From Sporofaciens musculi (GTDB lineage: Bacteria; Bacillota; Clostridia; Lachnospirales; Lachnospiraceae): a DNA stretch of 64,000 nucleotides. Shown here one piece after another: positions 12,775-27,684 of this stretch. How positions within the stretch are numbered: the first letter of the stretch is position 1; each line of letters opens with the position of its first letter. The notes under the pieces are model-generated. The model saw only the letters and a program-made list of their open reading frames with translations. It ran no database searches and had not been told where the DNA came from. The stretch spans positions 1,984,501 through 2,048,500 of the forward strand of contig NZ_WUQX01000001.1 of the NCBI RefSeq assembly GCF_009830285.1. The letters are read 5' to 3'. Both the position numbers and the translations under genes were made by a program.

Positions 12775-12815
12775 TGTTGGATAGTGCGGAGGGGTGACAA
12801 ACAAATACAAATAAG

Positions 12816-12832
12816 AAAGGGACTTCCTCAAT
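12816..12832. repeat. 17 bp inverted repeat, IME left-end copy
   Basis: AAAGGGACTTCCTCAAT, the exact reverse complement of 18070-18086 just before the recombinase gene. Lies 40 bases inside the IME left end. Possibly a recombinase or regulator binding site. Confidence 0.7.
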
Positions 12833-12840
12833 CCTTAAAA

Positions 12841-12871
12841 GGCTATGACACTATCGGTTATAGTCTTTTTT
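12841..12871 (+). terminator. Intrinsic terminator near IME left end
   Basis: Stem GGCTATGAC / GTTATAGTC with a 7 base loop, followed by a run of seven T. Probably shields the IME genes from transcription of the interrupted topB. Confidence 0.75.
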
Positions 12872-13041
12872 CATGCGGTAATTACCGTATAAAATGAACT
12901 CCTATTTCCACAAGCGGAGAAATACCCAACAACAGTATTCCCGCAATCCAATCTCCCGACAATTAACGGAAGAAAACCATATATCAGCACCGAAACCAAC
13001 CAATCATATCAATCAATCCATATCACAGGAGGGCAAAGACC

Positions 13042-13650
13042 ATGAATAAAAAGCAGGAACAGCAGATTTTAGATTATTACAGCACCACCGACAAATATAT
13101 CCGTAGCAAGACACACTCCAATGCGCATCAGACTGTATTCACCAAAGAAAGCGACAAATACCAGTGGCTTGTGCTGGAGCAGAAAAGCCAGTGTGAAGTT
13201 GAGGTAAGGCAGACCGACAGTCATGGAACAATCACAGCGAGGGATAATTACGAACTGACAAGAAATCTCCCTAAGTGCATGGGCGTGGAACGCTTATGCG
13301 AGGGAACAACTATGCAGATACCTTTCAACGCTGATGAAATCAACTTAATCTATCAGTTTGGGGAGCAAAGCAAAGCGGAAACGTGCGCCAGTTTATCCGC
13401 TATTCTTCCGCAGGTAAAAGACAGCGACACAAAGCAGATAGTAAATACTACCTTAAAGAAATTAAATTCCCTGTCAGAAGAAACGTGTGCGGAACTGACC
13501 GCCACCACCAAAAGGCGGAAACTGACCGAGCGTGACCACTCCATAAAGACAAGGTTAGCCAAAGCAAAGGAACAGGCAAAACAGCCGACAGTTACCGAGA
13601 GAAAACAGCGCAGAACCCACAGTAAAGGAAAGGGGGATATAGCACTATGA
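13042..13650 (+). CDS. IME protein of unknown function, 202 aa
   Basis: ATG after CAGGAGGGCAAAGACC. Soluble, helical, strongly charged at its C-terminus (KRRKLTERDHSIKTRLAKAKEQAKQ then Lys/Arg-rich end). No recognised domain; the basic tail suggests nucleic acid binding. Overlaps the next gene by ATGA, so translation is probably coupled. Proteins with this look recur in TnpX-type IMEs of Clostridia, likely with a role in element maintenance or transfer. Confidence 0.7.
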   Translation: MNKKQEQQILDYYSTTDKYIRSKTHSNAHQTVFTKESDKYQWLVLEQKSQCEVEVRQTDSHGTITARDNYELTRNLPKCMGVERLCEGTTMQIPFNADEINLIYQFGEQSKAETCASLSAILPQVKDSDTKQIVNTTLKKLNSLSEETCAELTATTKRRKLTERDHSIKTRLAKAKEQAKQPTVTERKQRRTHSKGKGDIAL

Positions 13651-13922
13651 AACTTTCACGATACGAGCAGGAAAGTATTCTCAATTATAACGCAGGAGAA
13701 CAGACCGCCACCCTCTACACAAGAGATAAGACGGTCATGCGGAAACTTGACACGCTTGTTGCCGACTTCCCCGATACATACAAGCTGACAGAGCAGGACG
13801 AGGTATCTAAGACCTATTCCTTTCCGAAGTCACACGTCAGCTACCGCAAGCCAAGGACAGTCAGCACCGAGCAGAGGGAACGGGCAAGGCAGATGATGAT
13901 TAAGCAGAACAATTCAAAATAA
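13647..13922 (+). CDS. Small conserved IME protein, 91 aa
   Basis: Starts MKLSRYEQESILNYNAGE, continues ATLYTRDKTVMRKLDTLVADFP and KTYSFPKSHVSYRKPR. No membrane segment or known motif. The same type of protein is often found upstream of XRE and MobA/MobL genes in Clostridia IMEs. Translationally coupled to the 202 aa gene. Function unknown. Confidence 0.75.
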   Translation: MKLSRYEQESILNYNAGEQTATLYTRDKTVMRKLDTLVADFPDTYKLTEQDEVSKTYSFPKSHVSYRKPRTVSTEQRERARQMMIKQNNSK

Positions 13923-14178
13923 ATTTGAGTTTTTGTATTGTGTTTTCACAGATTTTTTATTTGTATGTTTGTTATATAAATTCGCACAGAATTATGCTAT
14001 AATCAAGAAAATTCGTTCCATAAATCCTAATGCAACGCAAATTTTCGTAACTGCAACGATTAGTTGACACCAATTAAATAGCTGTTGGTGGTATGCAACT
14101 AACAAATTATTCTATTATGTCCACAAGGAGGTAATTAACATGGACATAATGGAGAACGTACAAATGGAGGTGATGAAC

Positions 14179-14523
14179 ATGGATATATCGGAACGGCTTC
14201 AAGAGCTACGTAAAAAAGAAGGCTATTCACAGGAGCAAGTTGCCGAGATGTTAGGACTTTCTAGGCAAGCAATTTCCAAATGGGAAAGTGGACAGGGAAA
14301 GCCGGAAATTGACAATATCATTAAACTAACAGAAATTTACAATGTAAGTGCAGATTATATTCTGTTAGGTACTGAAAAAGTATCTGTTCCAGTGCCAGAA
14401 AAGAAGGAATTGAGCCACGAATACAAAAAAGCAATAGGTATAATTGCTATAATAGCGGCAACAGCAATAGTTACAGTGCTATTTATTACTGCGTTAGGAT
14501 TGCTTTCACGATTAGGAATTTAG
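14179..14523 (+). CDS. XRE-family regulator with C-terminal membrane helix
   Basis: N-terminal HTH: RLQELRKKEGYSQEQVAEML then SRQAISKWESGQGKPEIDNI, ending NVSADYILLGTEK. A short linker leads to a C-terminal transmembrane helix (IGIIAIIAATAIVTVLFIT), making it a membrane-anchored regulator. Start choice: ATG 14179 follows GGAGGTGATGAAC; an in-frame ATG at 14140 also follows AAGGAGGTAATTAAC and would add 13 residues. It lies next to the lipoprotein gene and may respond to envelope signals. Confidence 0.85.
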   Translation: MDISERLQELRKKEGYSQEQVAEMLGLSRQAISKWESGQGKPEIDNIIKLTEIYNVSADYILLGTEKVSVPVPEKKELSHEYKKAIGIIAIIAATAIVTVLFITALGLLSRLGI

Positions 14524-14534
14524 GAGGAAAAATT

Positions 14535-14789
14535 ATGGAGCGAACAGGAAGAATTTCAAAGTTGTTTCTCATTATTCTTTTGTTTAGCATGATTGCTATA
14601 ACAATGAGTGGTTGTGTTTATGTTAATAACAAGGATTGGGACGACATGACACCCGAAGAACAAGAAGAAGTACGGCAAAATTTTGAGGAAGAACGGAAAG
14701 AACTGGAAGAAGATTTTCCGAGTGATAGTGTGGAGGGTAAATTTACATCATATATTCTTGATAAGGTTGAAGAAGGTATTGAAGATTAA
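14535..14789 (+). CDS. Small lipoprotein
   Basis: 84 residues with a lipoprotein signal peptide: positively charged start, hydrophobic LFLIILLFSMIAITM and lipobox MSGC. The mature part is acidic (EEQEEVRQNFEEERKELEEDF). It begins 12 bases after the membrane-anchored XRE gene with its own GGAGGAAAAATT site, so the two form a pair. Possibly a partner that controls the regulator; this is inference. Confidence 0.8.
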   Translation: MERTGRISKLFLIILLFSMIAITMSGCVYVNNKDWDDMTPEEQEEVRQNFEEERKELEEDFPSDSVEGKFTSYILDKVEEGIED

Positions 14790-14833
14790 GTAGTTCCATC
14801 GAATCAGAAAAAATTGAATATTGTTTACCTTTT

Positions 14834-14876
14834 GGTAGCGATTTATTTTAACAGTAAATCAGCTACCTTTTTTATT
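14834..14876 (+). terminator. Terminator after the XRE-lipoprotein pair
   Basis: Stem GGTAGC...GCTACC with additional ATTTA/TAAAT pairing, followed by TTTTTTATTTT. Confidence 0.8.
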
Positions 14877-14920
14877 TTCGGAAACTATCAACACAGCACA
14901 GAAAGAATGAGGTATCAAAA

Positions 14921-15262
14921 ATGATTGAGAGCAAGAATGACACAAGCAAAAACTTAGAAAAGGCATTGCAGGCATTGAAACAGGCGCAACAGCGTGTAGC
15001 CAACGAAAAGAAAAAACAGAACGAGAAGAAACGCAAAGCCGAGAACCACCACAAGTACATCATGGGCGGTATTATCGTGAAGTATTTCCCCGACTGCTAC
15101 CACTATGACGAGGGCGAGTTAAACCGTATCTTATCAGTTGCCTTGCAGACAAGGGAGTGTCAGCAGATTATCTCTAAAATCAAGTCGGAAAACCAAGAAA
15201 CCACTCCCCCACAATCCAATCCCACCAATGCCGAAAATGAAAGCGAGGGCGGTACGGAATGA
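14921..15262 (+). CDS. DUF3847-family mobilization-associated protein
   Basis: 113 residues. An N-terminal coiled coil rich in Lys/Gln/Glu (LEKALQALKQAQQRVANEKK, KKRKAENHHKYIMGGIIVKYFPD) matches the DUF3847 family found before MobA/MobL relaxases. The C-terminal tail is hydrophilic and low complexity. ATG after a GAATGAGGTATCAAAA leader with a weak site. It lies directly upstream of the oriT-like region and the relaxase, so it is probably a relaxosome accessory protein of the IME. Confidence 0.75.
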   Translation: MIESKNDTSKNLEKALQALKQAQQRVANEKKKQNEKKRKAENHHKYIMGGIIVKYFPDCYHYDEGELNRILSVALQTRECQQIISKIKSENQETTPPQSNPTNAENESEGGTE

Positions 15263-15294
15263 CAAAGGCGAGGACACTGGAAAGCCGAGGTAAC

Positions 15295-15545
15295 GTATTC
15301 ACCCTGTTTACAGGGTGCGCACAGATATACCACCAGAGGTGGTATGTGCGCTCTCCGAGGGGCAAGTTTCACTTGCATGGACTCCTGCGGAGGGCGTTGT
15401 CTGCCTTGCGGCAGCCAAAAGGGGAAACGACAATTCCCCTTCGCAAGCTGCGCTTGCTACCCTTTAGTGAACTTTGCGTTCAGACAAAAGCCAAAGTGCG
15501 GCTTTTATCTGCCCACAAAGTCTATGAGTGCGCTCCACTACTTTA
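15295..15545 (+). other. Candidate oriT of the IME
   Basis: This gene-poor stretch before the relaxase holds several inverted repeats: ACCCTGTTTACAGGGT; GCGCACAGATATACCACC paired with GGTGGTATGTGCGC; AAGGGGAAACGACAATTCCCCTT; and CAAGCTGCGCTTG. The CTGCGCTTGC word resembles the nic neighbourhood of MobA/MobL systems. Its position between accessory gene and relaxase is typical for oriT. The exact nic site is not proven. Confidence 0.6.
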
Positions 15546-15568
15546 TCGGCAGAATGTAGGTGTTGCGT

Positions 15569-17143
15569 ATGGGTAATGTCACGAAACAGGCAAGCACACG
15601 TTTTTCCATAGTCAGGCGGAGCAAGGGGCAGTCGGCAGTTGAGAAAGCGTCCTATATCAGCAGGAGTATTCTTGTCAGTGAATTTGACGGACAGACATAT
15701 CGACCAAAATACCATGAAGATTTAGTCCACAGTGAAATCACTCTCCCACCCAATGCGCCCAAAGAGTATGCAGACCGAGCTACCTTATGGAACGCTGTTG
15801 AACTGTCAGAGAAAGGGCAGAAATCACAGCTTGCGAGAATGTTAAAAGCGTCACTCCCTAACGAATGGAGTTATGAACTTGCGGAGGAAGTTGTGAGGGA
15901 CTACGTTCAGCAGAATTTTGTTGATAAGGGAATGTGTGCGGATTGGGCGATACACGATAGTGAGAATGATAAAGGACAGCGAAATCTCCATATCCATGTT
16001 TTACTCACAATGCGCCCTCTCACTGAAAATGGGGAATGGGGAGCGAAACAGAAGAAAATCTATGACCTTGACGAAAACGGCGAAAAGATACCAGTGATTG
16101 ATAAGAAGACAGGTCAGCAGAAAGTTGACAAGCGGAACAGGAAACAGTGGAAATGTCACACCGCCGACAGCACCGACTGGAACAGCAGAGAAAACGCTAA
16201 AATGTGGCGCAAGGATTTAGCCGACACAATCAATGCCACCAATGGGCAGTTGGGGCTTGCGTTACATTGGGAACACCGTTCTTTTAAGGAACAGGGAATT
16301 GACAGAGAGCCGACAATCCATATCGGGGCGGTTGCCAACGCTTTAGAGCGCAAAGGCATACAGACCGAGAGGGGAAACATCAATCGGGAAATCATCAAAA
16401 ACAATATGCTGTTAGAACAGGCGAAAGAAATGCTCATGCTTGCCAAACAGGAACTTCACAGCGTACAGTACGAAAAGATTAAAAATACGGCGGTCAGCGT
16501 AAAGAATGAAGTCATGGAGATGATTGCAAAAGTGAGGGAGCGCAAAGGCAGACTTGACTTGCCGATTGTCAGCGGAAAGCACCTAAGAAGAATATCCGAC
16601 AGAACCGCCTTGCAGTCAGCCGACAATGCGGAGAAGTTCATCACGACAAGAAAGATAGACAGCTATGAGAGCCTTGCAAAATTTACAGCGGATAAGGAAC
16701 AGAGATACCAACAGTTGGAAACGGTACATCTTTCCAAGGGGCAGAAACTAAACCGATTAAAGGAACTGTCAAAAATGTATGCCCTCTTTGCGCCGATCCA
16801 AGCCACCTATAAGGAGAGCCAGTCACTCAAAGGACTTGCTAAGATGAAATACGATAGGGAGCATAAGGACAGCTTATCGAAGTACCCCGAATTAAAGGAG
16901 CGTATGCAGAGCCTTTTACAGAACGGCGAAAAGGTAACGCCGAAACAGTGGAAAGCCGAGATACAGTCTTTGCAGTCCGAGTATGACAGTATCGGCAAGG
17001 AGCAGACCAAGACCGCCACAGAATTAGCGTATGCCGAGGTAATCAGCTACAATAAAAAGAACCTTGAGAGGGAGCTTCAGAACGAGAGCCGACAGCATAA
17101 TAAGCAACAAAACAAAACTAAGCGGAGGGAGGAAGAAATTTAA
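15569..17143 (+). CDS. MobA/MobL-family relaxase
   Basis: 524 residues from the ATG at 15569; in-frame GTG and TTG just upstream are alternatives. The N-terminal MobA_MobL domain (~1-250) contains FSIVRRSKGQSAVEKASYISRS and a catalytic Tyr region. The metal-binding motif is NLHIHVLLTMRPL, and GLALHWEHRSFKEQGIDREPTIHIG is the usual second conserved block. The C-terminal half is coiled coil and ends with a basic Lys/Arg tail. It nicks oriT and leads the IME strand through a host conjugation machine, here possibly that of the ICE it sits in. Frame intact. Confidence 0.92.
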   Translation: MGNVTKQASTRFSIVRRSKGQSAVEKASYISRSILVSEFDGQTYRPKYHEDLVHSEITLPPNAPKEYADRATLWNAVELSEKGQKSQLARMLKASLPNEWSYELAEEVVRDYVQQNFVDKGMCADWAIHDSENDKGQRNLHIHVLLTMRPLTENGEWGAKQKKIYDLDENGEKIPVIDKKTGQQKVDKRNRKQWKCHTADSTDWNSRENAKMWRKDLADTINATNGQLGLALHWEHRSFKEQGIDREPTIHIGAVANALERKGIQTERGNINREIIKNNMLLEQAKEMLMLAKQELHSVQYEKIKNTAVSVKNEVMEMIAKVRERKGRLDLPIVSGKHLRRISDRTALQSADNAEKFITTRKIDSYESLAKFTADKEQRYQQLETVHLSKGQKLNRLKELSKMYALFAPIQATYKESQSLKGLAKMKYDREHKDSLSKYPELKERMQSLLQNGEKVTPKQWKAEIQSLQSEYDSIGKEQTKTATELAYAEVISYNKKNLERELQNESRQHNKQQNKTKRREEEI

Positions 17144-17217
17144 TGGAAATTCGATAGAAATATGGGCGTGATTGTGGTATTCTATTAGCAGTACAAATTG
17201 ATTGCGAGGTTAATTTT

Positions 17218-17748
17218 ATGTGTGAATTGATGTTGATTAGACCAACAAATATATATGAAAAACAAGTTATGTCCTACAAAGAAGAAATGTTTCAGAACGG
17301 AGATAGCTTTGACGGTTGTGCAGGTCTTGAAGATGTTCATTCATTTGATGAATGGATAGATTTTGAAAAAAGATTAAGAAATAAATATGGTGCAGGATAT
17401 GTTCCGTCAGAAGTATTTTTAGCAGTAAGGGAAAATGATAATTTTGTTGTTGGTATAATAGATTTTCGACATCCGCTATCGGATTTTCTTAAAAGTTTTG
17501 GAGGTAATATTGGGTATAGTATTCGTCCGTCAGAAAGGCGAAAAGGTTATGCGTCTGAAATGCTCAAGTTGATTTTACCTATCTGTTATGAATTTGGAGA
17601 AAGTAAGGTTTTATTAACTTGTGATAAAGAAAATATAGCTTCGAGAAGAACGATAATTAAAAATGGCGGATTGTTAGAAAATGAAGTTGTCGATACAGTA
17701 GGATTAAGTAAAAGTGGCATTATTCAAAGGTACTGGATTTCGATATAG
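17218..17748 (+). CDS. GNAT-family N-acetyltransferase (IME cargo)
   Basis: 176 residues. GNAT fold with the acetyl-CoA-binding block IGYSIRPSERRKGYASEMLKL (R/Q-x-x-G-x-A type) and the C-terminal CDKENIASRRTIIKNGGLLENE, where the NxxSxxxxxxNGF pattern of RimJ/RimL-like enzymes is seen. AT-rich compared with flanking IME genes, which suggests later acquisition as cargo. Followed by its own terminator. Substrate unknown; drug or peptide acetylation are possible. Confidence 0.85.
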   Translation: MCELMLIRPTNIYEKQVMSYKEEMFQNGDSFDGCAGLEDVHSFDEWIDFEKRLRNKYGAGYVPSEVFLAVRENDNFVVGIIDFRHPLSDFLKSFGGNIGYSIRPSERRKGYASEMLKLILPICYEFGESKVLLTCDKENIASRRTIIKNGGLLENEVVDTVGLSKSGIIQRYWISI

Positions 17749-17805
17749 TGTCTTTCAACTTCAAAATTGTTATACAATCATTAACAGAATAATTACACAG
17801 CGTCA

Positions 17806-17842
17806 GAGCGTATAGAAAACAAATCTATGCGCTCTATTTTAT
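17806..17842 (+). terminator. Terminator after the GNAT gene
   Basis: Stem GAGCGTATAGA / TCTATGCGCTC with loop AAACAAA, followed by TATTTTATT. Confidence 0.8.
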
Positions 17843-17859
17843 TGTAAAGGAGCAGATTT

Positions 17860-18033
17860 ATGGGCAAAGACAGCAACACAGGGCATAGAGCCACCCGACA
17901 GCACCCACCCACAAAAATTATCGTGGAAAGGCATTATGTAGGCACTGAAAAAATGGAAACAGTATTCAAACGGATAGCCGAGGAACAGATAACAAAAAAG
18001 GTTAGGGAAATAGCGGAAAACAGCGTAAATTAG
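17860..18033 (+). CDS. Small TnpW-like protein upstream of recombinase
   Basis: 57 residues from ATG at 17860 (AAGGAGCAGATTT before it). Basic and helical: KIIVERHYVGTEKMETVF, then KRIAEEQITKKVREIAEN. Its size, position just before a TnpX-type recombinase and the pattern resemble TnpW-family transposon proteins; the match is tentative. A comparable small gene (42578) precedes the ICE integrase. Confidence 0.55.
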   Translation: MGKDSNTGHRATRQHPPTKIIVERHYVGTEKMETVFKRIAEEQITKKVREIAENSVN

Positions 18034-18069
18034 CACTGGAAACGGAAAAGGGAATATAGTATAATAGGA

Positions 18070-18086
18070 ATTGAGGAAGTCCCTTT
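18070..18086. repeat. 17 bp inverted repeat, recombinase-proximal copy
   Basis: ATTGAGGAAGTCCCTTT lies 18 bases before the recombinase ATG and is the exact reverse complement of 12816-12832 near the IME left end. Confidence 0.7.
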
Positions 18087-18103
18087 TCATTAAGGAGGAC
18101 GAC

Positions 18104-19741
18104 ATGAAAAGGGCAAAACTGAATAACGACAAAATCACTGCTTTATATTGCAGGCTTTCCAAAGACGACGGCACGAACAACGAGAGCATGAGCATCAGCA
18201 CACAGAAAACCATGCTGAAAGATTACGCAAAGCGCAACGGTTTTCTGAACTGCCAGTTTTACGTTGATGACGGTTACAGCGGTACGAACTACGACCGCCC
18301 CGCTTTCCGACAGCTTATCGAGGACATACAGGACGGGGAAGTGTCAACGCTCATCACAAAAGACCTGTCACGATTGGGGAGGAATTATCTTGAAACGGGT
18401 ACTTATATCGAGGTATTTTTCCCAAACCATAATGTACGTTACATTGCAATCAATGACGGTGTGGACTCCATAGACAACGCTCAAATGGATATTACACCGT
18501 TCCGTAACATCATCAATGAAATGTACGCAAAGGACACGTCAAGGAAAATCAAGAGCGCACTCCACGCAAGGAGAATGCAGGGCAAGTATATGGCTACCAC
18601 CGCCCCATTCGGTTATCAGAAAGACGAGAAAGACCATAACCACCTTGTCATTGATGAAGTGACCGCCCCTGTTGTGGAACTGATTTTCTCAATTGCCGAG
18701 GAGGGTGTAGGGCTTCACACTATCTGTAACCGCTTGCGTAAGGCGAAAGTGCTGAAACCGAGTTTCTACAAAAAGGAACTGTTTGAGCGTTTTATGGACG
18801 AGGAAAAAATGTATGACTGGGATACTGCCTATGTCAGTCAGATATTGCACAATCCCGTCTATGCAGGAAACCTTACTGTTGCGGACAAACCAACCAAGAC
18901 CATGCGTTCCAAGAAAAGACAGTATATCCCGTTTGCAGAGCGTGAAGTCATTTATGGCACACATGAGCCAATCATTGAACAGAACCGCTGGAACAATGTG
19001 CAGAAGATTTTACAGAGCCGACCGCCCGTTATCGGGGAAAGTTCAAGCGGATATGACAACATCTTCCGAGGGGTTATCAAGTGCGCCGATTGTGGGAGTG
19101 CCATGCTTGCCAAAGTCGAGCAGAAAAGAAAGCGGAACAATGTATTAGACAAGACTTTCTACTGCTGTACCAAATACCGCAAGTTTGGGAAAGAGGGCTG
19201 TTCATCACACACCATTGAGGCGAGGACGGTTCACGAAGTTGTGCTTGCGGACATTCAGAAACACGCAGGACAGGCATTGACCGACAGGAAAGCTATGGTA
19301 ACGGAGATTGCCGAGCGTCTTAATCTCCAACTGTCAGCGGATAAGGAACAGCAGAAAAAGGAACTAAGGCAATGTAAACAGCGAGTGTCGGAAATAGAAA
19401 ACCTGTATGCCAAACTGTATGAGGACTTGACAAGGGAACTGATAACAGAAAAGCGTTTCCAAATGCTGTCGGCACGATTTGACAGCGAGCAGGAAGAACT
19501 GACAGCCAAGATAAAGGAACTTGAAAAAAGTGCCATAGCGGACAAAGAACAGTTATCTTCCATTGAGCATTTTGCAGAGCAGATAAGCGGTTATGCAGGA
19601 ATAACGGAACTCAATTTTAAGATAATCAACCAACTTATAGAAAAAATTCTTGTTTCTGAACCCGTAGAAGTTGACGGGCAGAAAATTCAACGACTTACTA
19701 TCCATTACAAGTTCATAGGGGCACTGGAAACCCTTGAATAA
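18104..19741 (+). CDS. Large serine recombinase of the IME (TnpX-like)
   Basis: 545 residues from the ATG at 18104 (AAGGAGGACGAC). Resolvase domain begins TALYCRLSKDDGTNNESMSI, with the catalytic Ser in SMSISTQ or the nearby RLS, and TKDLSRLGRNYLETG as the second conserved block. Then recombinase domain, zinc-ribbon (CADCGSAML ... CCTKYRKFGKEGC), coiled coil, and a DUF4368-like end. It catalyses excision and insertion at GA dinucleotides in this family. The gene ends 38 bases from the IME right end, the usual position. Intact. Confidence 0.93.
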   Translation: MKRAKLNNDKITALYCRLSKDDGTNNESMSISTQKTMLKDYAKRNGFLNCQFYVDDGYSGTNYDRPAFRQLIEDIQDGEVSTLITKDLSRLGRNYLETGTYIEVFFPNHNVRYIAINDGVDSIDNAQMDITPFRNIINEMYAKDTSRKIKSALHARRMQGKYMATTAPFGYQKDEKDHNHLVIDEVTAPVVELIFSIAEEGVGLHTICNRLRKAKVLKPSFYKKELFERFMDEEKMYDWDTAYVSQILHNPVYAGNLTVADKPTKTMRSKKRQYIPFAEREVIYGTHEPIIEQNRWNNVQKILQSRPPVIGESSSGYDNIFRGVIKCADCGSAMLAKVEQKRKRNNVLDKTFYCCTKYRKFGKEGCSSHTIEARTVHEVVLADIQKHAGQALTDRKAMVTEIAERLNLQLSADKEQQKKELRQCKQRVSEIENLYAKLYEDLTRELITEKRFQMLSARFDSEQEELTAKIKELEKSAIADKEQLSSIEHFAEQISGYAGITELNFKIINQLIEKILVSEPVEVDGQKIQRLTIHYKFIGALETLE

Positions 19742-19779
19742 TGGATATTTTCTAAGTCACCTATTCCAACTATCCAACA

Positions 19780-21582
19780 GACGCCGGACGGGAGGGCGAA
19801 CTGATCTTCCGTCTGGTCTATGAACACGCCGGATGTAAGAAACCGATGGAACGCCTCTGGATTTCCAGTATGGAGGATGCGGCGATCCGTGACGGGTTTG
19901 AACACCTGCGCCCTGGCAGCGACTACGATAAGCTCTATGACGCGGCGGTCTGCCGGGCCGGGGCCGACTGGCTGATCGGTATTAACGCCACCCGGCTTTT
20001 CTCTGTCCTGTATGGCGTCACGCTCAATGTGGGGCGTGTCATGTCGCCCACGCTGGCCCTTTTAGTCCAGCGGGAGGCGGATATTCAGGCATTTACGAGC
20101 AAGCCTTTTTATGTGCCGGAGATCACCTGCAGCGGCTTTACTGCCTCCGGTGAAAAGCGGCCGGATAAGGCCGGGGCTGAAAAAATCCGTATGGACTGTG
20201 ACGGGCAGGCCGCTTCGGTGCGGTCTGTGGAGAAGCAGGTCAAGACGGTACAGCCGCCCCGCCTGTACGACCTGACGACTTTGCAGCGGGAATGTAACCG
20301 TATCTATGGCTATACGGCCCAGCAGACCCTTGACTATGTGCAGTCCCTCTATGAGAAAAAGCTGGCGACCTATCCCCGGACGGACAGCCAGTATCTGACC
20401 GAGGATATGCAGGCAACCGCCGCTTCCCTGGTTCTCTGGCTGCGGGATCATATGCCATTTGGAAAAGGCTGTGCCGGGGAACCGGATATTGACCGCGTAA
20501 CGGATGGCAGCAAAGTCACCGACCACCATGCCATTATTCCTACGGCGGAGATTGCCCGGACGGATTTATCGGAGCTCCCTTCCGGGGAGCGGGATGTACT
20601 GACGCTGATCGCCGCAAGGCTGCTTTCTGCCACAGCCCAGGTGCACCGATTCGAGGCGGTGACGGCGGTTCTGGACTGCAGGGGCAATTCCTTCACGGCA
20701 AAAGGAAAGACAGTATTACAGGCTGGATGGAAGGAAGTGGAACGCCTCTACCACATGGGATTGAAACAATCCAAACCGGAGGATGACGAGAATACGGATG
20801 CCGCCCTCCCCATATTGCAGGAGGGGCAGATATTTGAAATGGTCTCTGCCAGCGTCCGGGAGGGCAAAACCTCCCCGCCGAAGCACTATACGGAGGATTC
20901 CCTTCTGGCAGCTATGGAGACAGCCGGTGCCGAGGATATGCCGGAGGATGCCGAGCGCAAGGGATTAGGCACCCCGGCCACCCGTGCGGCTACGCTGGAA
21001 AAACTGGTCTCTGCCGGATTTGTGCAGCGGAAAAAAAAGCAGCTTATTCCAACGGAAAAAGGTACGAACCTGATCCTGGTCCTGCCGGACAATATCAAAT
21101 CGCCTACGCTCACCGCAGAATGGGAATCCATGTTGAAGCAGGTGGAACGCGGCGAGCTGGCCGCAGAATCCTTTATGGGGCAGATTGCGGATATGAGCCG
21201 GACGCTGGTAAAAGAACATACCGCCCCGGAGGAACGCTTTGCCGGCCTGTTCCCGGATGCAAAAAGAAGCGGGCGTGAGGCTGTCGGCACCTGCCCCCGA
21301 TGCGGCGGAACCGTATATGAGGGCAAAAAAGGATTCTTTTGTGATAACCGGGACTGTGCCTTTGCGCTGTGGAAAGACAATAAATTCTTTTCCGGAAAGA
21401 AAAAATCCATAACAAAATCTGTGGCGGCGGCCCTTCTGAAAGAGGGCCGCGTTTCCATATCCGGGCTTTACAGCGAAAATACGGGAAAGACCTATGACGC
21501 GGTGGTGCTGCTGGATGATACAGGCGGAAAATATGTGAATTTCAAGCTGGAATTTCCGGCTAAGAAAGGCAGGAAGAAATGA
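19780..21582 (+). pseudogene. topB: DNA topoisomerase III, 3' fragment (split by IME)
   Basis: Continues the fragment at 12467-12774. It starts with the rest of the TOPRIM motif (DAGREGELIFRLVYEH), followed by the central domain and the active-site Tyr in LATYPRTDSQYL, then GLGTPATRAATLEKL. It ends with a C-terminal zinc-ribbon (CPRCGGTVYEGKKGFFCDNRDC). The long open frame is preserved, so the insertion is probably recent or the 3' part could still be translated from internal starts such as 19846. It cannot be a full enzyme without precise IME excision. Confidence 0.92.
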
Positions 21583-22089: not shown

Positions 22090-22614
22090 ATGCAGATAGA
22101 AAAGACAGCGGTTACAAAAGAGCTTATGCGGATTGATACCAGGAGGCAGGTGATTGATATACAGCAGATTGATAACCGGCGCTTTATGTATAACCCGAAA
22201 ACCGGCATATTGGTCTTAGGTTATCAGTATGCAGCTACAAGTACAATGGTTTCCAACCATGCCAACGAACTGGCCGAAGCTGGGATTACAAAAGGTTATG
22301 ATGATTTTGTCCGGGGCTGGATTGGAACCGGCGGGGACTATCCCAAAGGGGTGATCCACTTTGCGCCCTGTGTGGACAAAAGAAATATAAAGCTGTTTAA
22401 CCAGGCGTTCGACACGCTGGAAATGTTCAAGGAAAACGGCGCACTGGCGGGCACGGTGATCCGTGGCTTCGGGGAACGCTGGGAGCAGCCGTTATCCGAT
22501 ATTTTCACGGATATGCGGGAACCAGAGCAGAAACCCTCTGTCCGTAAGCAGCTAAAGAAACAGCCGGAGGCAAAAGCCAGCCGGCAGAAAACCAATCATC
22601 AACAGGAACGATAG
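22090..22614 (+). CDS. ICE accessory protein with shared C-terminal tail
   Basis: The frame is open from TTG 22063. A GGAGGG site at 22084-22089 directly touches the ATG at 22090; an in-frame ATA at 22096 has better spacing. The ~150 residue body (RRQVIDIQQIDNRRFMYNP...) is a conserved ICE domain I cannot name. The end is KPSVRKQLKK...HQQER, a pattern repeated in the following accessory proteins. Soluble. Possible large-polyvalent-protein type domain or transfer-associated factor. Confidence 0.65.
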   Translation: MQIEKTAVTKELMRIDTRRQVIDIQQIDNRRFMYNPKTGILVLGYQYAATSTMVSNHANELAEAGITKGYDDFVRGWIGTGGDYPKGVIHFAPCVDKRNIKLFNQAFDTLEMFKENGALAGTVIRGFGERWEQPLSDIFTDMREPEQKPSVRKQLKKQPEAKASRQKTNHQQER

Positions 22615-22627
22615 GAGGCGATTTTTT

Positions 22628-23266
22628 TTGAATATCAACACAATCACAACCGATGACCTGCGGCACATGGAAGGCAAAGACGGCCTGATCCTGCAGGGCT
22701 GCGGCGGGGATCTGAAGGAATGGGTGGACGGGATCAATGAGATGTTCACCGAGGCGGGGATTTTGAAGGACGGAAGTAAATTTGAGGATGTTTTCACTTT
22801 CCAGTATGGGGAGCTTACCTGTCTGCTCTATCCTTTCGAGGATGTAAAGCTGGACATCGGGAAACTTGCTGTGTGGCGTTTGCAGACCCATGAGAATTTC
22901 GGGGGCACCTGGCTGTCCGATTTTGTACCGAACCGTTTGGGCGGCTTTATCGGGGAACCTTCGCCGGAGCCGGAAAAACCGGATTGTGCGCTGATCGGCC
23001 AGGACGGCAATATCTTCAATTTGGTAGGCATTGCGGCCCGTACCCTGCGTGAGCATGACCTAAAGGATCAGGCAAAGGAAATGAAAGACCGGGTGTTTGC
23101 TTGTGGCAGTTATGGGGAGGCTCTTTGTATCATTGGCGAGTATGTCAATATCACGGATTCCGAAGCGGAGCCGGAGCACAGACCTTCCCTCCGGCAGCAG
23201 ATAAAAGACGCAAAGCACACGGAGACGCCCCAAAAGCAGAAACCAGCAAAACAGCAGGAACGATAA
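22628..23266 (+). CDS. ICE accessory protein (LPD28-like) with shared C-terminal tail
   Basis: TTG start nine bases after GGAGG. 212 residues. The body (LRHMEGKDGLILQGCGGDLK, WVDGINEMFTEAGIL...) resembles an LPD28-type large polyvalent protein domain. A second segment (CALIGQDGNIFNLVGIAARTLREHDL) is similar to regions in other ICE accessory proteins. It ends RPSLRQQIKDAK...KQQER, matching the tail of its neighbours. No membrane segment or catalytic motif seen. Domain call is tentative. Confidence 0.65.
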   Translation: MNINTITTDDLRHMEGKDGLILQGCGGDLKEWVDGINEMFTEAGILKDGSKFEDVFTFQYGELTCLLYPFEDVKLDIGKLAVWRLQTHENFGGTWLSDFVPNRLGGFIGEPSPEPEKPDCALIGQDGNIFNLVGIAARTLREHDLKDQAKEMKDRVFACGSYGEALCIIGEYVNITDSEAEPEHRPSLRQQIKDAKHTETPQKQKPAKQQER

Positions 23267-23277
23267 GGAGGATCAGA

Positions 23278-24216
23278 ATGGAAAAAGAAACAACCTACGG
23301 CGTATGGGCGGTGCGCAGCGGCGCTTCTATCTTCGGCCATGCCGAGGCGTGGTGCAAGGAAGATGGAAAACCTTTGGAATTTGACACCCGCGAGGCTGCG
23401 GAGGCTTATGCCAGGGAAATGAACAGCAAAACCACCGCCAATGTCCATTATTACGCACAGGAGAAAGAACCGGAGCCGGGCGCGGTAAGAAAGACTTCCG
23501 CACAGGCACATCCGGATTTGGATGCCCGCGCCTATGCGGAAGTGACGCCGAGAAATGACGCGACGGAAAAGCAGAACGAGATTCCCGGCAGGCAGGTCAT
23601 GCCGGAGGCGGACCCATTGGTGGAAATTCGCTCTGCGGTCCACAGCAACTATGCGGGCATGGTCGCCATGCTGGGCGCGGATAACCGGGTGTACCTGGGT
23701 CGTGAGGAACGCTGCCACTATCAGGATATGCAGGCGTCTTATTATGACAATCAGGACGGCTCCCTGTGCTTTGTCTGCGACCAGCCGGATATGTACTATT
23801 TTCTCTATGGGGAGGGCTGGGCGCATACCCAGGCGGAAATGCTGGAGCGCGGCCTTACCCTGCGCCAGTATGAGGAATTTGCAAGGCTTCGGGACGGCGT
23901 GCTCTCACAGTTTACACCGAGCCGGGAAATCCTGTTCGCCGGGCAGCCCTTCCAACCGCCGGAGAGCTATCTGCGTAATGCGGAGCTTTACGAGGAAGGA
24001 CAGACCGGAAACTATAATATGCTGGATGGCAGGCTCAATAATGAGCCGCCTGTGCGCCCTGACCTGACAGACGGGCAGACGTATGAGGAAATCCAGGAGC
24101 TTGCCCCGGAGACGTTGCCGGAAGAAAAACCCTCTCTCATGGAAAAGCTGAAAGCAGACCGCCCGGAACATGAGGCCAGGCAGATTGTCCCTCCTGCGCC
24201 GGAAAGGGAACGCTGA
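23278..24216 (+). CDS. ICE accessory protein, 312 aa, with shared C-terminal tail
   Basis: ATG at 23278 after AAGGAGGATCAGA; the longer frame from 23101 overlaps the previous gene. N-terminal module (YGVWAVRSGASIFGHAEAWC) reads like a small sandwich domain. A second, larger module follows (SAVHSNYAGMVAMLGADNRVY, then CFVCDQPDMYYFLYGEGWAH). It ends EKPSLMEKLKADRPE...PERER. No family named with confidence. Its stop overlaps the next start, so the set is transcribed and translated as a unit. Confidence 0.65.
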   Translation: MEKETTYGVWAVRSGASIFGHAEAWCKEDGKPLEFDTREAAEAYAREMNSKTTANVHYYAQEKEPEPGAVRKTSAQAHPDLDARAYAEVTPRNDATEKQNEIPGRQVMPEADPLVEIRSAVHSNYAGMVAMLGADNRVYLGREERCHYQDMQASYYDNQDGSLCFVCDQPDMYYFLYGEGWAHTQAEMLERGLTLRQYEEFARLRDGVLSQFTPSREILFAGQPFQPPESYLRNAELYEEGQTGNYNMLDGRLNNEPPVRPDLTDGQTYEEIQELAPETLPEEKPSLMEKLKADRPEHEARQIVPPAPERER

Positions 24217-24923
24217 TGGCGGCGGTAAAATTCGAGGGTGTGGATATACTGGACAGCCTGGAGCAGATCATGGAGCTGCACACGCAGCATTATAAGGATG
24301 ATTTTGACCTAGATAGAGAGCTGATTCCAAAGCTGGCCGTATCGGGAGAACCGGAGGATCGGCGCCTTCTCTGGCTATCGCGGCCCTGCGGCACCTATAC
24401 CCTGCGGGAATGGGAGGTCTATCTGGAAGGCAGCCATGCAAATAAAGTGTGGAAGTTTTACCATGAACAGACGAAAGACTCGGTTCTTGCCTATGCCCTC
24501 TCTATCAAAGAGGTTCAGGACGGAAAAGTGACCGGCAATATTTATACACTGGATTATGGGGCGCATGTGGAGCGGGTAAAGCTGCTGACCTGCCCTATTG
24601 GAAAAGTAGCCGTTTTGTTTGAGGACGGAGCCAATATCACAATCCCTTATCAGAACCAGAGGCAGCTTATGAATGAGCTGATGCCGGTACATGGAAGTCC
24701 AAAGACGATGACCGAGCTGCCGGAGAACGAGCGGGAGCTTGCCGTGATCCTGAAACGAGAACGGCTCAAACGCTCTTACCATGCCACAAACGGTGATATA
24801 AAAGAGTATATTGACAGTCTGAAAAAAGGTACCCTGCGTGGAAAGCTCAAAGAGTCTCGGACAGCTGCCGTTTCCGCTCATAAACCGCCTTCCCCTTCCC
24901 CAAAAAAGGAGCCGGAACGATGA
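24216..24923 (+). CDS. ICE accessory protein, 235 aa
   Basis: ATG at 24216 overlaps the stop of the previous gene. Body includes ILDSLEQIMELHTQHYKDDFD and YTLREWEVYLEGSHANKVWKF, suggesting a small antirestriction- or LPD-like fold, but no family is certain. The C-terminus (LRGKLKESR...KKEPER) is a weaker version of the tail shared by its neighbours. Precedes mobC by ATGA overlap. Confidence 0.65.
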   Translation: MAAVKFEGVDILDSLEQIMELHTQHYKDDFDLDRELIPKLAVSGEPEDRRLLWLSRPCGTYTLREWEVYLEGSHANKVWKFYHEQTKDSVLAYALSIKEVQDGKVTGNIYTLDYGAHVERVKLLTCPIGKVAVLFEDGANITIPYQNQRQLMNELMPVHGSPKTMTELPENERELAVILKRERLKRSYHATNGDIKEYIDSLKKGTLRGKLKESRTAAVSAHKPPSPSPKKEPER

Positions 24924-25264
24924 AAGCTGGGCATAACAAAAAATCCGTCCGGGTGGAATTCGTCATGTCTGAACAGGAGGCAGAGCTGGTAAAGGGTCGC
25001 ATGGCAGAACTTGGTATTACAAACCTCTCTGCGTATCTGCGCAAGATGGCGGTAGACGGTTATATTATCCATCTGGATATGAGCGACATTCAGGAAATGA
25101 TACGGCTCCTGCGTATCTGCTCCAATAACTTAAACCAATATACCAGACGTGCCAATGATACCGGCAGTATTTACGCTGCCGATATGGACGATCTGCGCAC
25201 CCGCCTGGACAGTTTGTGGGATGGCATGGATAAGCTGCTGCGGGGATTTGCGAACATTTCGTAA
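24920..25264 (+). CDS. mobC: MobC-family relaxosome protein
   Basis: 114 residues, overlapping the previous gene by ATGA. The N-terminal ribbon-helix-helix-like stretch (SVRVEFVMSEQEAELVKGRM, LGITNLSAYLRKMAVDGYI) and LLRICSNNLNQYTRRAN match the MobC/bacterial mobilization protein family. These bind oriT and help the relaxase open the strands. Two genes upstream of the relaxase, as expected. Confidence 0.88.
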   Translation: MKAGHNKKSVRVEFVMSEQEAELVKGRMAELGITNLSAYLRKMAVDGYIIHLDMSDIQEMIRLLRICSNNLNQYTRRANDTGSIYAADMDDLRTRLDSLWDGMDKLLRGFANIS

Positions 25265-25355
25265 ACTGGAAGAACCGCTGTTGCTTTTCGTAGACCGGCA
25301 CGGTAAAATTTTAATGAAGGGGTAAATATGCTTCTCTATGAAAGGAGGCGGACGT

Positions 25356-25646
25356 ATGCGTCTGATTGGCAAATTGTTGGCACTTCCCTTTGTATTGGTT
25401 ACGGGGATTCTTTATCTGGTGTGCAAATTCCTTGTGGTGATTTCCGGCGCTGTGCTGGGGATTCTATCAGGGATTGTATTTCTGGCGGCGCTGGTGCTGT
25501 TCTTCACTGCCGGGTTCTGGCCAGGGCTTTCATGGTTGGTGATTGCGTTTCTGATCAGCCCCTACGGTCTGCCAATGGCTGCGGCCTGGTTGGTGGGGAT
25601 CATTGGCGATGCAAACAGCGCATTAAAGGATTTTGTATTTGGTTAA
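25356..25646 (+). CDS. CD1845-like small membrane protein
   Basis: 96 residues from the ATG at 25356 after GGAGGCGGACGT; an in-frame ATG at 25338 is less likely. Two or three hydrophobic helices: LLALPFVLVTGILYLVCKFL, VVISGAVLGILSGIVF and LVIAFLISPYGLPMAAAWLV. Matches the CD1845-like family of Tn1549-type ICEs, found between mobC and the relaxase. Likely sits in the membrane and helps conjugation; no activity known. Confidence 0.78.
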   Translation: MRLIGKLLALPFVLVTGILYLVCKFLVVISGAVLGILSGIVFLAALVLFFTAGFWPGLSWLVIAFLISPYGLPMAAAWLVGIIGDANSALKDFVFG

Positions 25647-25654
25647 ACAGTTTC

Positions 25655-25686
25655 GGCGGGGCGCATTGGCAGCCCCGCCCTTTTTC
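25655..25686 (+). terminator. Terminator after the CD1845-like gene
   Basis: Stem GGCGGGGC / GCCCCGCC with loop of nine bases, followed by CTTTTTC. Confidence 0.8.
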
Positions 25687-25734
25687 TATAATATGACTGT
25701 CGGCTATGGCAGCTTTTTGATTGGAGGAATTTCA

Positions 25735-26259
25735 TTGAAAGATACAACGCCAATTTATTTTCATTCTGCCACCTATGCGCATGAGCATGGGGAACTAAAT
25801 CAGTACTACACTTCCCACAAAGCAAACATTGCGTGTAAGGAGGCAATCGAACAGGCCATTGCGGATAACTACCGGGATAACTGTTTAGGTTCCGCATGTG
25901 TGCAACAGGTCTTACAGCAATTTGATCCTGGTCGGATTTTCTATGTGCTTGCCAATACGGTCCGGCAGAAAGATTACGACGGGCGCATTTCACGGGACAA
26001 TAAGGCATGGGCGCAAACGGTCCCGGTCTGTGAGGATAAGGACGGTTTCGGATATGACCAGAATGTTTACTTTGTTGTAGACCGCAGCCATACAGGGCTG
26101 ATGGATTTATTTCTCACCCAGGCAAGACGGGAGTATGCGCTGGCACAGGAGAAACCTTCTGTCCGTGACAGCCTGAATAAAAGCGCCGGGCAGCAGGCGG
26201 CGCACAGTGATAAACCGAAAATAAAAAAAGAACAGGCGATAACAGGGCCGATTTTGTAG
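25735..26259 (+). CDS. DUF3849 ICE protein with shared C-terminal tail
   Basis: TTG start at 25735, eight bases after GGAGG; upstream in-frame codons lie over the terminator. 174 residues. DUF3849 signature: PIYFHSATYAHEHGELNQYY, SHKANIACKEAIEQAI and a C-terminal FYVLANTVRQKDYDGRISR. End shows EKPSVRDSLNKSAG and a Lys-rich tail, as in neighbouring accessory proteins. Common in Tn1549-like elements; role unknown. Confidence 0.82.
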   Translation: MKDTTPIYFHSATYAHEHGELNQYYTSHKANIACKEAIEQAIADNYRDNCLGSACVQQVLQQFDPGRIFYVLANTVRQKDYDGRISRDNKAWAQTVPVCEDKDGFGYDQNVYFVVDRSHTGLMDLFLTQARREYALAQEKPSVRDSLNKSAGQQAAHSDKPKIKKEQAITGPIL

Positions 26260-26274
26260 TAAGGGGGTGATGGA

Positions 26275-27684
26275 ATGGCAACCACACGGCTCATGCCGCT
26301 ACACGTTGGGAAAGGCCGGGATGTTACCACGGCCATAGCGGATATTATTGACTATGTGGAGAATCCGCAGAAAACCGATTTTGGAAAATTCATTTATGGC
26401 TATGAGTGCGACACCCGGATTGCTGATGCAGAATTTCTTCTTTCCAAGCGGCAATATACAAACCTGACCGGAAGAAGCCGGGGTGCGGATGATGTGATTG
26501 CCTACCATCTCCGTCAGGCGTTTAAGCCCGGCGAGGTCACGCCGGAAGAAGCGAACCAAATCGGGCGGGAACTTGCATTGAAGCTGACAAAAGGTAATAA
26601 TGCTTTTGTTGTCTGCACCCATGTGGACAAACACCATATCCATAACCACATCATCATAAATTCTACCACGCTGGACTGTCAGAAAAAATTCCGTAACTTC
26701 TGGGGTTCTACCTGGGCGATCCGGCGCATGAATGACAAGCTCTGCCTGGAACATGGGCTTTCTATTGTGGAGAATCCGAAACCCAGCCGGGACCATTACG
26801 GCACATGGATGGGAAGTCAGAAACAGCCCTCCCACCAGGAACAGCTACGTTGGGCTATCGACGCAGCTCTGGAAGAAAAGCCGAAGGACTTTGAAGAACT
26901 TTTGAAGAAACTGGAGGCGGCTGGGATTGAAGTCAACCGGGAACGAAAGAACCTTCGTTTTCGCCTGTCACCGGAAGATAGATATACCCGGTGTGACACG
27001 CTAAAGGACGACTATACCGAGCAAGCCATCAAAGAACGGATCGCCGGCACCCGGACAGCGAAGCCGCGCCGTACCTTTCCCAAAAAGCCTGTTTCCAAAG
27101 TCGGGCTGCTGGTGGATATTGAGGCGGCGGTCCGTTCCGGCAAAGGTCCGGGGTATGAACGCTGGGCGAAAGTGTTCAATCTGAAACAGCTCTCTCAGGC
27201 GGTGATCTGGCTCAAAGAGCATGGCGATATGAGCTATGAGGACCTGCAGAAAAAATCAGACGCCGCTACCGCCAGCTTCAATGCGCAGTCGGTAAAGATC
27301 AAGGAACTGGAATCACAGATGGCTGCCAATGGGGAGCTGCAGAAACAGATCGTAAATTATGCCAAGACGCGGGCAGTCTATGTGGAGTATCGAAAAGCCG
27401 GGTACAGCAAAAAATTCCGTGCGGCGCATGAGACGGAAATCCTTCTGCACCAGGCGGCGAAGAAACACTTTGACGAGGTTGGTATTACAAAGCTGCCCTC
27501 CGTCAAATCTCTGCGGGAGGAATACGCCGGACTTCTGGAACAAAAACGGAAAGCCTATTCTTCCTATAAGCAGGCCAGATCTGATATGAAGGAACTCTAT
27601 AATGTCCGGGCGAATGTGGAGCACCTGCTGGACATTTCCACCGGGCGGGAAACACAGAGGGAAACGCAGAAGTCACGGCAATAG
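26275..27684 (+). CDS. ICE relaxase/mobilization nuclease
   Basis: 469 residues. Relaxase domain (~1-200) begins ATTRLMPLHVGKGRDVTTAI with the catalytic Tyr in IADIIDYVENP. It has the HUH-type metal site HVDKHHIHNHIIIN and the LCLEHGLSIVENPKPS block of the Tn1549-type (MobP-like) family. The rest is coiled coil and basic. It nicks oriT (candidate at 27700-27860) and carries the transferred strand. ATG after AAGGGGGTGATGGA. Intact, so the ICE DNA could still be mobilised in trans even though topB and the integrase are broken. Confidence 0.92.
   Translation: MATTRLMPLHVGKGRDVTTAIADIIDYVENPQKTDFGKFIYGYECDTRIADAEFLLSKRQYTNLTGRSRGADDVIAYHLRQAFKPGEVTPEEANQIGRELALKLTKGNNAFVVCTHVDKHHIHNHIIINSTTLDCQKKFRNFWGSTWAIRRMNDKLCLEHGLSIVENPKPSRDHYGTWMGSQKQPSHQEQLRWAIDAALEEKPKDFEELLKKLEAAGIEVNRERKNLRFRLSPEDRYTRCDTLKDDYTEQAIKERIAGTRTAKPRRTFPKKPVSKVGLLVDIEAAVRSGKGPGYERWAKVFNLKQLSQAVIWLKEHGDMSYEDLQKKSDAATASFNAQSVKIKELESQMAANGELQKQIVNYAKTRAVYVEYRKAGYSKKFRAAHETEILLHQAAKKHFDEVGITKLPSVKSLREEYAGLLEQKRKAYSSYKQARSDMKELYNVRANVEHLLDISTGRETQRETQKSRQ

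Follow-up and report, generated by a model that had tools for sequence, protein, structure and literature searches.

A 64,000-nucleotide stretch of the Sporofaciens musculi genome (G000:C2:1984501-2048500; hereafter the window) holds an operon at 22090-27684 in which five proteins end in versions of one tail of about 30 amino acids. The operon appears to be part of an integrative and conjugative element (ICE) that spans ~1943 to 2012 kb of the contig. As far as sequence comparisons can establish it, the tail is confined to C-termini, is independent of the family of the body it follows, is under constraint, occurs once per polypeptide, is associated with one type of type IV secretion system (T4SS), and co-varies with the tail of the PcfB protein of the same element. 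The explanation that we favor, and consider fairly probable, is that the tail would be a docking or export signal for conjugative type IV secretion of the PcfB/CD1115 type. The tailed proteins and their tails are as follows.

22090..22614, + strand: tail protein 1, 174 amino acids; body without a Pfam family above the cut-off
22531..22611, + strand: tail of protein 1, KPSVRKQLKKQPEAKASRQKTNHQQER
22628..23266, + strand: tail protein 2, 212 amino acids; no Pfam family
23180..23263, + strand: tail of protein 2, RPSLRQQIKDAKHTETPQKQKPAKQQER
23278..24216, + strand: tail protein 3, 312 amino acids; DUF4316 (PF14195) at residues 228-292
24127..24213, + strand: tail of protein 3, KPSLMEKLKADRPEHEARQIVPPAPERER
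24216..24923, + strand: tail protein 4, 235 amino acids; homologue of a 314-amino-acid tailed protein on plasmid pMG2200
24825..24920, + strand: degenerate tail of protein 4, KGTLRGKLKESR...KKEPER; profile E=0.003, kept in orthologs
25735..26259, + strand: tail protein 5, 174 amino acids; DUF3849 (PF12960) at residues 7-134
26152..26256, + strand: tail of protein 5, KPSVRDSLNK...

The five tailed proteins of the operon

A sequence-only reading of this DNA had proposed tails on the proteins ending at 22614, 23266, 24216 and 26259, and all four were located. We scanned the six frames of the window (stop-to-stop open reading frames (ORFs) of at least 60 amino acids, motif no more than 60 residues from the C-terminus) for [KR]PS[VLIM]xxx[LI] and obtained exactly four matches, in these same proteins, with 19, 20, 21 and 27 residues after the motif. 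The strict form, [KR]PS[VL]xxx[LI], is likewise found 19-27 residues before the C-terminus of the four, and among the 75 window ORFs of at least 100 amino acids it occurs in the last 45 residues of these and no others. Three of the four tails end in -ER, as had been noted. The fourth, that of protein 5, ends in -GPIL (ITGPIL in the window and in locus L175), and most other orthologs end in KKEPER, KEQAR or alike, several of them in -KKEPER or -KEQAR. We rejected -ER as a part of the core, as tail endings include ER, SL, EL, EV, EI and others; operon gene ends that overlap or abut the start signals of the next gene may also favor -ER. The weaker form reported on the protein ending at 24923, LRGKLKESR, proved to be real: it matches the profile (E=0.003) and recurs in orthologs, which include KKNTLRGKLKKS and KKSTLRGKLKEV, and the pMG2200 homologue has a canonical RPSIRKQL tail.

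The bodies differ, as had also been claimed, and fall into five separate clusters (phmmer E<1e-4); in a looser clustering, which chains via giant multidomain proteins, proteins 1 and 5 fall into a large polyvalent cluster. Protein 3 passes the cut-off of DUF4316 (33.8 bits vs 25), with the end of the domain taking in KPSLMEKLK of the tail, and protein 5 passes that of DUF3849 (151.4 bits vs 25). A search of the five bodies against NCBIfam gave nothing useful. Protein 1 scores 17.1 bits against DUF3801 (PF12687), short of the cut-off of 24.1, and the match covers residues 136-173, the tail region only. The tail as a mark of PcfB homology was rejected because protein 1 falls below this cut-off. 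Protein 2 has homologues with the tail and homologues without it.

The AlphaFold2 (AF2) model of protein 2 is confident in part (mean predicted local distance difference test score, pLDDT, of 71), and a search of its fold against the PDB gave nothing significant (best E 0.09). Straight after the P-S of the motif the model has a short, low-confidence helix at residues 188-196, and the tail is mostly at pLDDT<50. For protein 1 the AF2 model was poor (mean pLDDT 41). A short, disordered-looking terminus with a small helix at pLDDT<50 would suit a turnover tag, that is, a C-terminal degron or protease-adaptor motif keeping costly transfer proteins scarce before mating. We give this reading very little credence: the tail tracks a T4SS type and the PcfB tail (see below), which would be unexpected of a host protease tag.

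Confinement of the motif to C-termini

The general form of the motif is [KR]-x-[ST]-[VIL]-x-x-x-[LI], and the S is in most cases preceded by P. The core lies a median of 24 residues from the end (interquartile range 23-26), and the tails are basic, with a mean net charge of +4.9 (sd 2.2, n=120). The fetched ICE regions, together with five control stretches, yielded 1981 distinct C-termini of ORFs of at least 100 amino acids. The strict motif was present in the last 45 residues of 88 of them, compared with a mean of 0.77 and a maximum of 6 in 500 shuffles. Outside C-termini it occurred 37 times in 583,928 residues. Most of these occurrences are explained by an unrelated VIAEKPSV-type motif of TopB, found in 28 ORFs, which we take to be Toprim; the KPSV at the TopB N-terminus belongs to this stretch and was rejected as an instance of the tail motif.

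Two profiles, A1 and A2, were built from 16 of the 21 tails of the S. musculi genome and from 44 of 48 tails, respectively. Over the whole 5.76-Mb S. musculi genome, A1 gave 30 matches at E<0.005, 29 of them within the fetched ICE regions, a scan that is circular in part since the profile was built from those regions. The remaining match is on contig C3 outside the fetched stretch, and the first match far from ICE regions had E=0.5. When A1 was applied to 22 ICE segments from 18 other genomes (1041 ORFs), 42 of the 43 rows at E<2 were C-terminal, the exception having E=1.3. A profile retrained on these first two sets was applied to 22 further segments, from 17 genomes of the class plus pMG2200 (829 ORFs), and all 45 rows at E<1 were C-terminal. 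With the motif search thus extended to related ICEs, as the sequence-only reading had suggested, 121 of 122 matches at E<0.1 in the pooled 2885 ORFs were C-terminal, ending no more than 20 residues from the end; the sole non-terminal match is a long PcfB with extra basic residues after the core. In 31 named loci, 104 of 104 profile matches (E<0.1) were C-terminal. The sets are not fully independent, in that some genome contigs and loci L174-L218 are probably the same records (G017:C19 and L188, 87377 bases; G089:C6 and L197, 79659) and L201/L213 (by gene map) and probably L202/L218 are near-duplicates.

Bodies, fusions and fissions

Clustering with phmmer sorted 80 tail proteins into 13 groups by body, one of which is an 80-amino-acid fragment. 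The bodies that could be identified are PcfB/DUF3801; MobQ relaxases; SNF2 helicases, including giants with a methylase (1053-3043 amino acids); LPD1; LPD34; LPD15-ArdA-ArdC-YodL-DUF4316; ArdC-YodL-DUF3849-LPD18-LPD16; LPD18-YodL; DUF5688; DUF6674; DUF3849; and LPD26-SpoVG.

The position of the tail could be followed where bodies have been joined. Bodies 1 and 2 are separate, each with its own tail, in the window and in most relatives. In L197-L199 (Pseudoflavonifractor sp. An44, Parablautia sp. Marseille-Q6255 and Gemmiger sp. An50) they are fused, and the fusion protein has a single tail, at its new end, the junction being tail-less. In relatives, body 1 forms the N-terminal part of longer fusion proteins; where it heads proteins of 592 and 676 amino acids, the only tail is at the far end. 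The bodies of proteins 1 and 5 are found inside larger multidomain proteins of 592-3043 amino acids, and the body of protein 3 has matches within one 688-amino-acid protein. DUF3849 is internal in proteins of 588, 912, 1791 and 3043 amino acids, with no tail behind the domain; the termini of the 588- and 912-amino-acid proteins are also without a profile match. A terminal DUF3849 is followed by the tail in the window (by profile) and in G067 and another S. musculi copy (by eye), and in the context of L211 DUF3849 is protein-terminal and lacks this tail. Judged from these fusions, there is one tail per polypeptide, at the new end. A signal active only at the C-terminus predicts this pattern; a linker tied to a domain does not.

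In L208, L209, L211 and L205, which are another element or phage-like context, several unrelated neighboring proteins have at their ends an acidic stretch and Met/Ser (...QSMGM, ...YEQSM, ...GGMSMS, ...LSPTM, ...SMSMSL, ...APIMSM); the bearers include DUF3849 and LPD28 proteins. These endings are possibly a second, different common C-terminal tag.

Constraint and copying of tails

We estimated the ratio of nonsynonymous to synonymous change (pN/pS) pooled over the five genes, keeping one ortholog per identity step at 60-93% body identity and excluding L212, L185 and N-containing sequences. The ratio was 0.24 for bodies, 0.37 for tails and 0.30 for the first 14 tail codons. The tails are thus under constraint, weaker than that on the bodies, with the tail of protein 2 the loosest (0.48).

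Of 575 identical residues in tails from one element, 288 (50%) also share their codon, vs 199 expected (35%); between elements the value is 36%. Some tails have been copied as DNA. The tails could therefore be imagined as functionless fossil linkers, spread by duplication or conversion of 3' gene ends between neighbors, and the excess of shared codons is what such hitchhiking would produce. We regard this as very improbable. The tails have a pN/pS of 0.37, are borne by about twelve body clusters, and are found at C-termini only, with none at fusion junctions; in addition, two elements have tails in common with no codon excess (G083:C18, 11/38 vs 14.0 expected; a 155-kb ICE, 9/27 vs 9.1). The sequence-only reading had named duplication of linkers without conservation as the outcome that would speak against a tag. 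Its first half has a counterpart in the excess of shared codons within elements; the second does not, as the tails are conserved and restricted to C-termini. The tails seem to have spread by copying plus selection, both of which are compatible with a functional tag.

The element and its PcfB protein

Along the ICE lie tailed LPD1 and LPD34 proteins, then PcfB (tail RPSLLSQLHKFKELAQALGRDRVKNKEHGGPER), virD4, maff2, virB6, MT-A70, prgI, virB4 and on to the C40 peptidase, CD1107, topB and the window operon. This order matches that of the pMG2200 element, which we presume to be Tn1549-like, the plasmid record being silent on the point. The PcfB gene adjoins the VirD4 gene, and G033 has a related ICE in which 29 kb separate PcfB from the ortholog of protein 2, both on the same strand. 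The window operon itself has the 3' part of topB and the gene of a Cys-rich VLP protein as upstream neighbors; it encodes, besides the five tailed proteins, a DUF5699 protein and one resembling NikA/MobC, and its last gene is that of a MobP-type relaxase.

The tail is present at E<0.1 in 39 of 46 PcfB-like ORFs, a set that lacks PcfB genes dropped by the ORF filter, such as that of the window's element. Of the other seven, six have weaker or longer forms by eye and one (G012) has none. Among 147 genomes of the class, 33 have PcfB and 23 have tail matches, 20 of the latter being PcfB-positive. Setting aside two genomes that score only through the tail of PcfB itself, cargo tails (tails on proteins other than PcfB) occur in 18/33 PcfB-positive vs 3/114 PcfB-negative genomes (p=2e-11), and in 5/20 vs 3/114 when possible profile contributors are removed (p=0.002). 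Among 299 genomes of the phylum, eight have the tail and all are PcfB-positive; beyond PcfB itself the counts are 5/16 vs 0/283. Four of those five genomes are profile contributors and one, G283, is independent; without contributors the counts are 1/12 vs 0/283.

Homologues of protein 2 that lack the tail provide a natural control. They occur in 14 of 45 loci, a collection that overlaps some earlier segments and includes duplicates, and the eight that were aligned are 60-67% identical. The 740 ORFs of these 14 loci, several of which are short contigs with no visible T4SS gene, gave no tail even at E<=5; the other 31 loci gave 104 at E<0.1. One source of such homologues is the L200-type element, a sister type. 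It has its own type IV coupling protein, 37% identical to the pMG2200 VirD4 over 566 columns, and also PrgI and VirB4-like genes (scanned in L201). The match of the L200 DUF3801 protein to the model stops at position 95 of 131, and the tail part is missing. In this sister type the tail is thus absent from cargo body and DUF3801 protein alike, which favors an address tag.

In the L200-type loci L201, L202, L206 and L213, neighboring proteins end in -PGKAR/-PERAR/-PEKAR and -PGKSR/-PGMSR/-LGMSR. They may be the counterpart of the tag in that system.

Cargo tails are closer to the PcfB tail of their own element than to others: over 23 elements the mean core score was 29.4 vs 23.5 (sd 1.3). In permutations over 15 core positions, this co-variation was equaled in 0 of 10,000 with 23 elements, 6 of 10,000 with 12 elements and 412 of 10,000 with 4 deep groups. 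The cargo/PcfB pairs include PSI-PSI in several elements, RISVKEKL-RISVKEKL and ESILKQIKKYKD-KPSVIAQIKKFQD. The test left out IME-type MobQ tails (KPSVQGNL; IME, integrative and mobilizable element), cargos on the opposite strand and cargos more than 45 kb away, and the S. musculi cargos near 808 kb and 740 kb were put to elements by hand. Likeness of cargo and PcfB tails within an element would be seen, too, if the tails bound one another through short helices, such that cargo and PcfB made up one particle. Such homotypic assembly is extremely unlikely in our view, as net-positive tails would be expected to repel each other.

Relaxases and inserted blocks

Three further features of the window bear on relaxases and on the extent of the tail family.

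24920..25264, + strand: NikA/MobC-like relaxosome accessory protein, no tail
26275..27684, + strand: MobP-type relaxase (PF03432) of the element, no tail, ends GRETQRETQKSRQ
13042..13650, + strand: possible additional degenerate tail, ERDHSIKTRLAKAKEQ...DIAL; by eye only, outside the profile matches at E<0.3

The tail was found on some MobQ-type relaxases: four near-identical S. musculi copies, plus a G058 and a G166 protein whose tails differ. A MobQ relaxase in G028 matched the first profile only (3e-6), and further MobQ proteins have degenerate forms by eye. The S. musculi copies lie in a ~10-kb block present in four ICEs and 92-97% identical over two main aligned parts. In a fifth ICE the block is more broken, and its relaxase ORF is shorter and tail-less. 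In the window's ICE the MobQ block splits maff2, directly upstream of virB6. An inserted block interrupts each of the virD4, maff2 and topB genes of this ICE, and relaxase and serine-recombinase-like genes lie inside the blocks, the recombinase label being our reading of the sequences. Inserted blocks are located at window positions 12467-21582 and ~22-36 kb before the window.

We take the inserted blocks of the S. musculi genome to be IMEs, a label that fits the block comparison. It also agrees with published accounts, insofar as the passages of PMC5704250 drawn on here describe IMEs within maff2, traG/virD4 and SNF2 genes of Tn5252-superfamily ICEs. If the blocks are IMEs, their relaxases need the T4SS of another element, and a tail in common with the host ICE would resemble imitation of its signal.

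Many MobP and some MobQ relaxases have another C-terminal layout, in which a coiled-coil-like stretch leads to a (K)xN(I/V)D.IL patch or one like it, and 10-20 charged residues then run to the end, which is often -ER or -EL. This layout might be a docking end of its own.

Weighing docking and export

The suggestion of the sequence-only reading that a common tail on different domains is a sorting tag has gained support from the strict C-terminal position, from constraint, from the single tail kept per polypeptide through fusion and fission, and from the link to one T4SS type and to the PcfB tail of the same element. It is also borne by some relaxases, which among protein substrates of conjugative T4SSs are the most firmly established. 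Several observations nevertheless weigh against the tail being a docking or export signal of PcfB/CD1115-type secretion. The association with PcfB is partly built in, because the profile came from PcfB neighborhoods. Three PcfB-negative genomes have tail matches, G092 (C9; E=0.004), G192 (C3; 5e-4) and G199 (C19; 1.5e-7), with about one chance match expected at the threshold of these matches. A Lacticaseibacillus plasmid with PcfB and a VirD4 of the CD1115 type has a PcfB tail that is degenerate by eye and without a profile match, and no tailed cargo among the 22 proteins checked, so that the PcfB tail may have another primary role. With some tails copied as DNA within elements, co-variation is a weaker proof of co-evolution. 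The signal was also weaker at position 4 (V/I/L) taken alone (110, 289 and 1701 of 10,000 permutations). By eye, the window's element, which is outside the co-variation test, is a weak match, with PSL on PcfB against PSV and PSL on its cargo. On pMG2200, the tail is on three of 22 proteins checked (PcfB, a YodL polyvalent protein and the 314-amino-acid homologue of protein 4) and absent from VirD4, VirB4, VirB6, TopB, MobC, the C40 peptidase and the MobP-type relaxase. Relaxases mostly lack it: 0 of 42 MobP-type ORFs (some of them fragments) have it at E<1, including none on the MobP relaxase of the window's element, and 6 of 22 MobQ-type ORFs do with the final profile at E<1; a Pusillibacter MobQ is also tail-less. 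The tail is therefore not a general relaxase signal, and its presence on all relaxases was rejected.

These data bear on a reading in which the tail docks proteins without exporting them, tethering PcfB, relaxases and accessory proteins to the donor complex, the membrane or DNA for assembly or regulation. We think this rather unlikely, if a serious contender. It would suit the basic character of the tails (mean +4.9), the scarcity of tails on relaxases, which are the sure substrates, and the tail on PcfB beside VirD4, a degenerate version of which was found even without tailed cargo among the proteins checked. It fits less well with the identity of the bearers: the relaxases of apparent IMEs, for which export is obligatory, bear the tail, and many other bearers are polyvalent anti-restriction-type proteins (ArdA, ArdC, methylase-helicase), predicted in the portions of PMC5512222 consulted to act in the recipient on incoming DNA.

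Returning to the docking and export signal, export would be its likeliest purpose because many bearers are of anti-restriction type, needed in the recipient (as stated in the same portions of PMC5512222), and some are relaxases. The tailed proteins are thus probably sent to the recipient with the DNA. The tail would be a short linear docking signal, functional only at the C-terminus, in which P-S caps a small amphipathic helix (V/I/L...L/I...A/F) that is followed by a stretch of basic and polar residues. Its recognizer would be the PcfB/CD1115-type (Tn1549-like) transfer machinery, most likely at or beside the coupling protein VirD4, on which PcfB, bearing the same tail, may dock too. The bearers (polyvalent anti-defense-type proteins, their single-domain relatives such as the five of the window, and some MobQ relaxases, IME ones included) would thereby reach the T4SS and probably be exported. 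The tail may originally have been that of PcfB, and cargo may have copied this docking peptide. We infer all three of the helix, docking on VirD4 or PcfB, and export. A wider version, to which we assign an even chance, is that PcfB/CD1115-type elements of Gram-positive gut bacteria have an element-specific, transferable export code that sends an anti-defense battery into the recipient with the DNA, and that IMEs inside these elements mimic the peptide on their relaxases to ride along.

Relation to known systems and significance

C-terminal T4SS signals are already known in other systems. The signals of VirB/VirD4, the F-plasmid conjutome and Dot/Icm, as treated in the excerpts of PMC11288057 used here, are likewise C-terminal, some of them positively charged, and on unrelated bodies, and motifs with positive charge at the C-terminus form one recognized class of T4SS signal. 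The known signals vary considerably even inside one system (same excerpts of PMC11288057), in contrast to the tail described here, which has a motif and a near-constant spacing from the end. It also differs in occurring in Gram-positive elements and in resembling the tail of PcfB. Analogous in function are BID domains and internal translocation domains of the TraI type, through which the T4SS recognizes effectors or relaxases; these are folded, whereas the tail described here is a short peptide and probably unfolded.

Many tail bearers are polyvalent proteins, or solo domains of such proteins, of Tn1549-like elements (Iyer et al. 2017; the sections of PMC5512222 that we draw on), with LPD1, LPD15, LPD16, LPD18, LPD26, LPD34, YodL, ArdA, ArdC-N and methylase-helicase among their domains. 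Polyvalent proteins were predicted there to be delivered with DNA. The coupling "header" proposed in those sections is the N-terminal ArdC-N, and they make no mention of a C-terminal tail. DUF4316, of which protein 3 is a member, is a short domain of unknown function in Pfam; its model ends at the tail core, and the tail is spread far wider. Similarly, the last part of the PcfB/DUF3801 model (PF12687) covers the tail, and the tailed proteins of the window lack the PcfB body. In the one open-access library searched, we found no published description of such a C-terminal tag, nor any mention of DUF4316 or DUF3849; DUF3801 and the PcfB family each turned up in two papers.

Nearly all known functions of Gram-positive T4SSs are in DNA transfer, and dedicated effector translocation has been a long-standing question, according to a December 2025 review (PMC12857230), which also cites earlier evidence from a single system, that of Streptococcus suis. 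With a readable C-terminal tag, this question would become directly testable. Such a tag would list candidate substrates from sequence alone, in a class of elements that is common (PcfB in 33/147 sampled genomes of the bacterial class), and would account for how solo and fused polyvalent proteins could be delivered. It could also help predict which IMEs can be mobilized by a given ICE.

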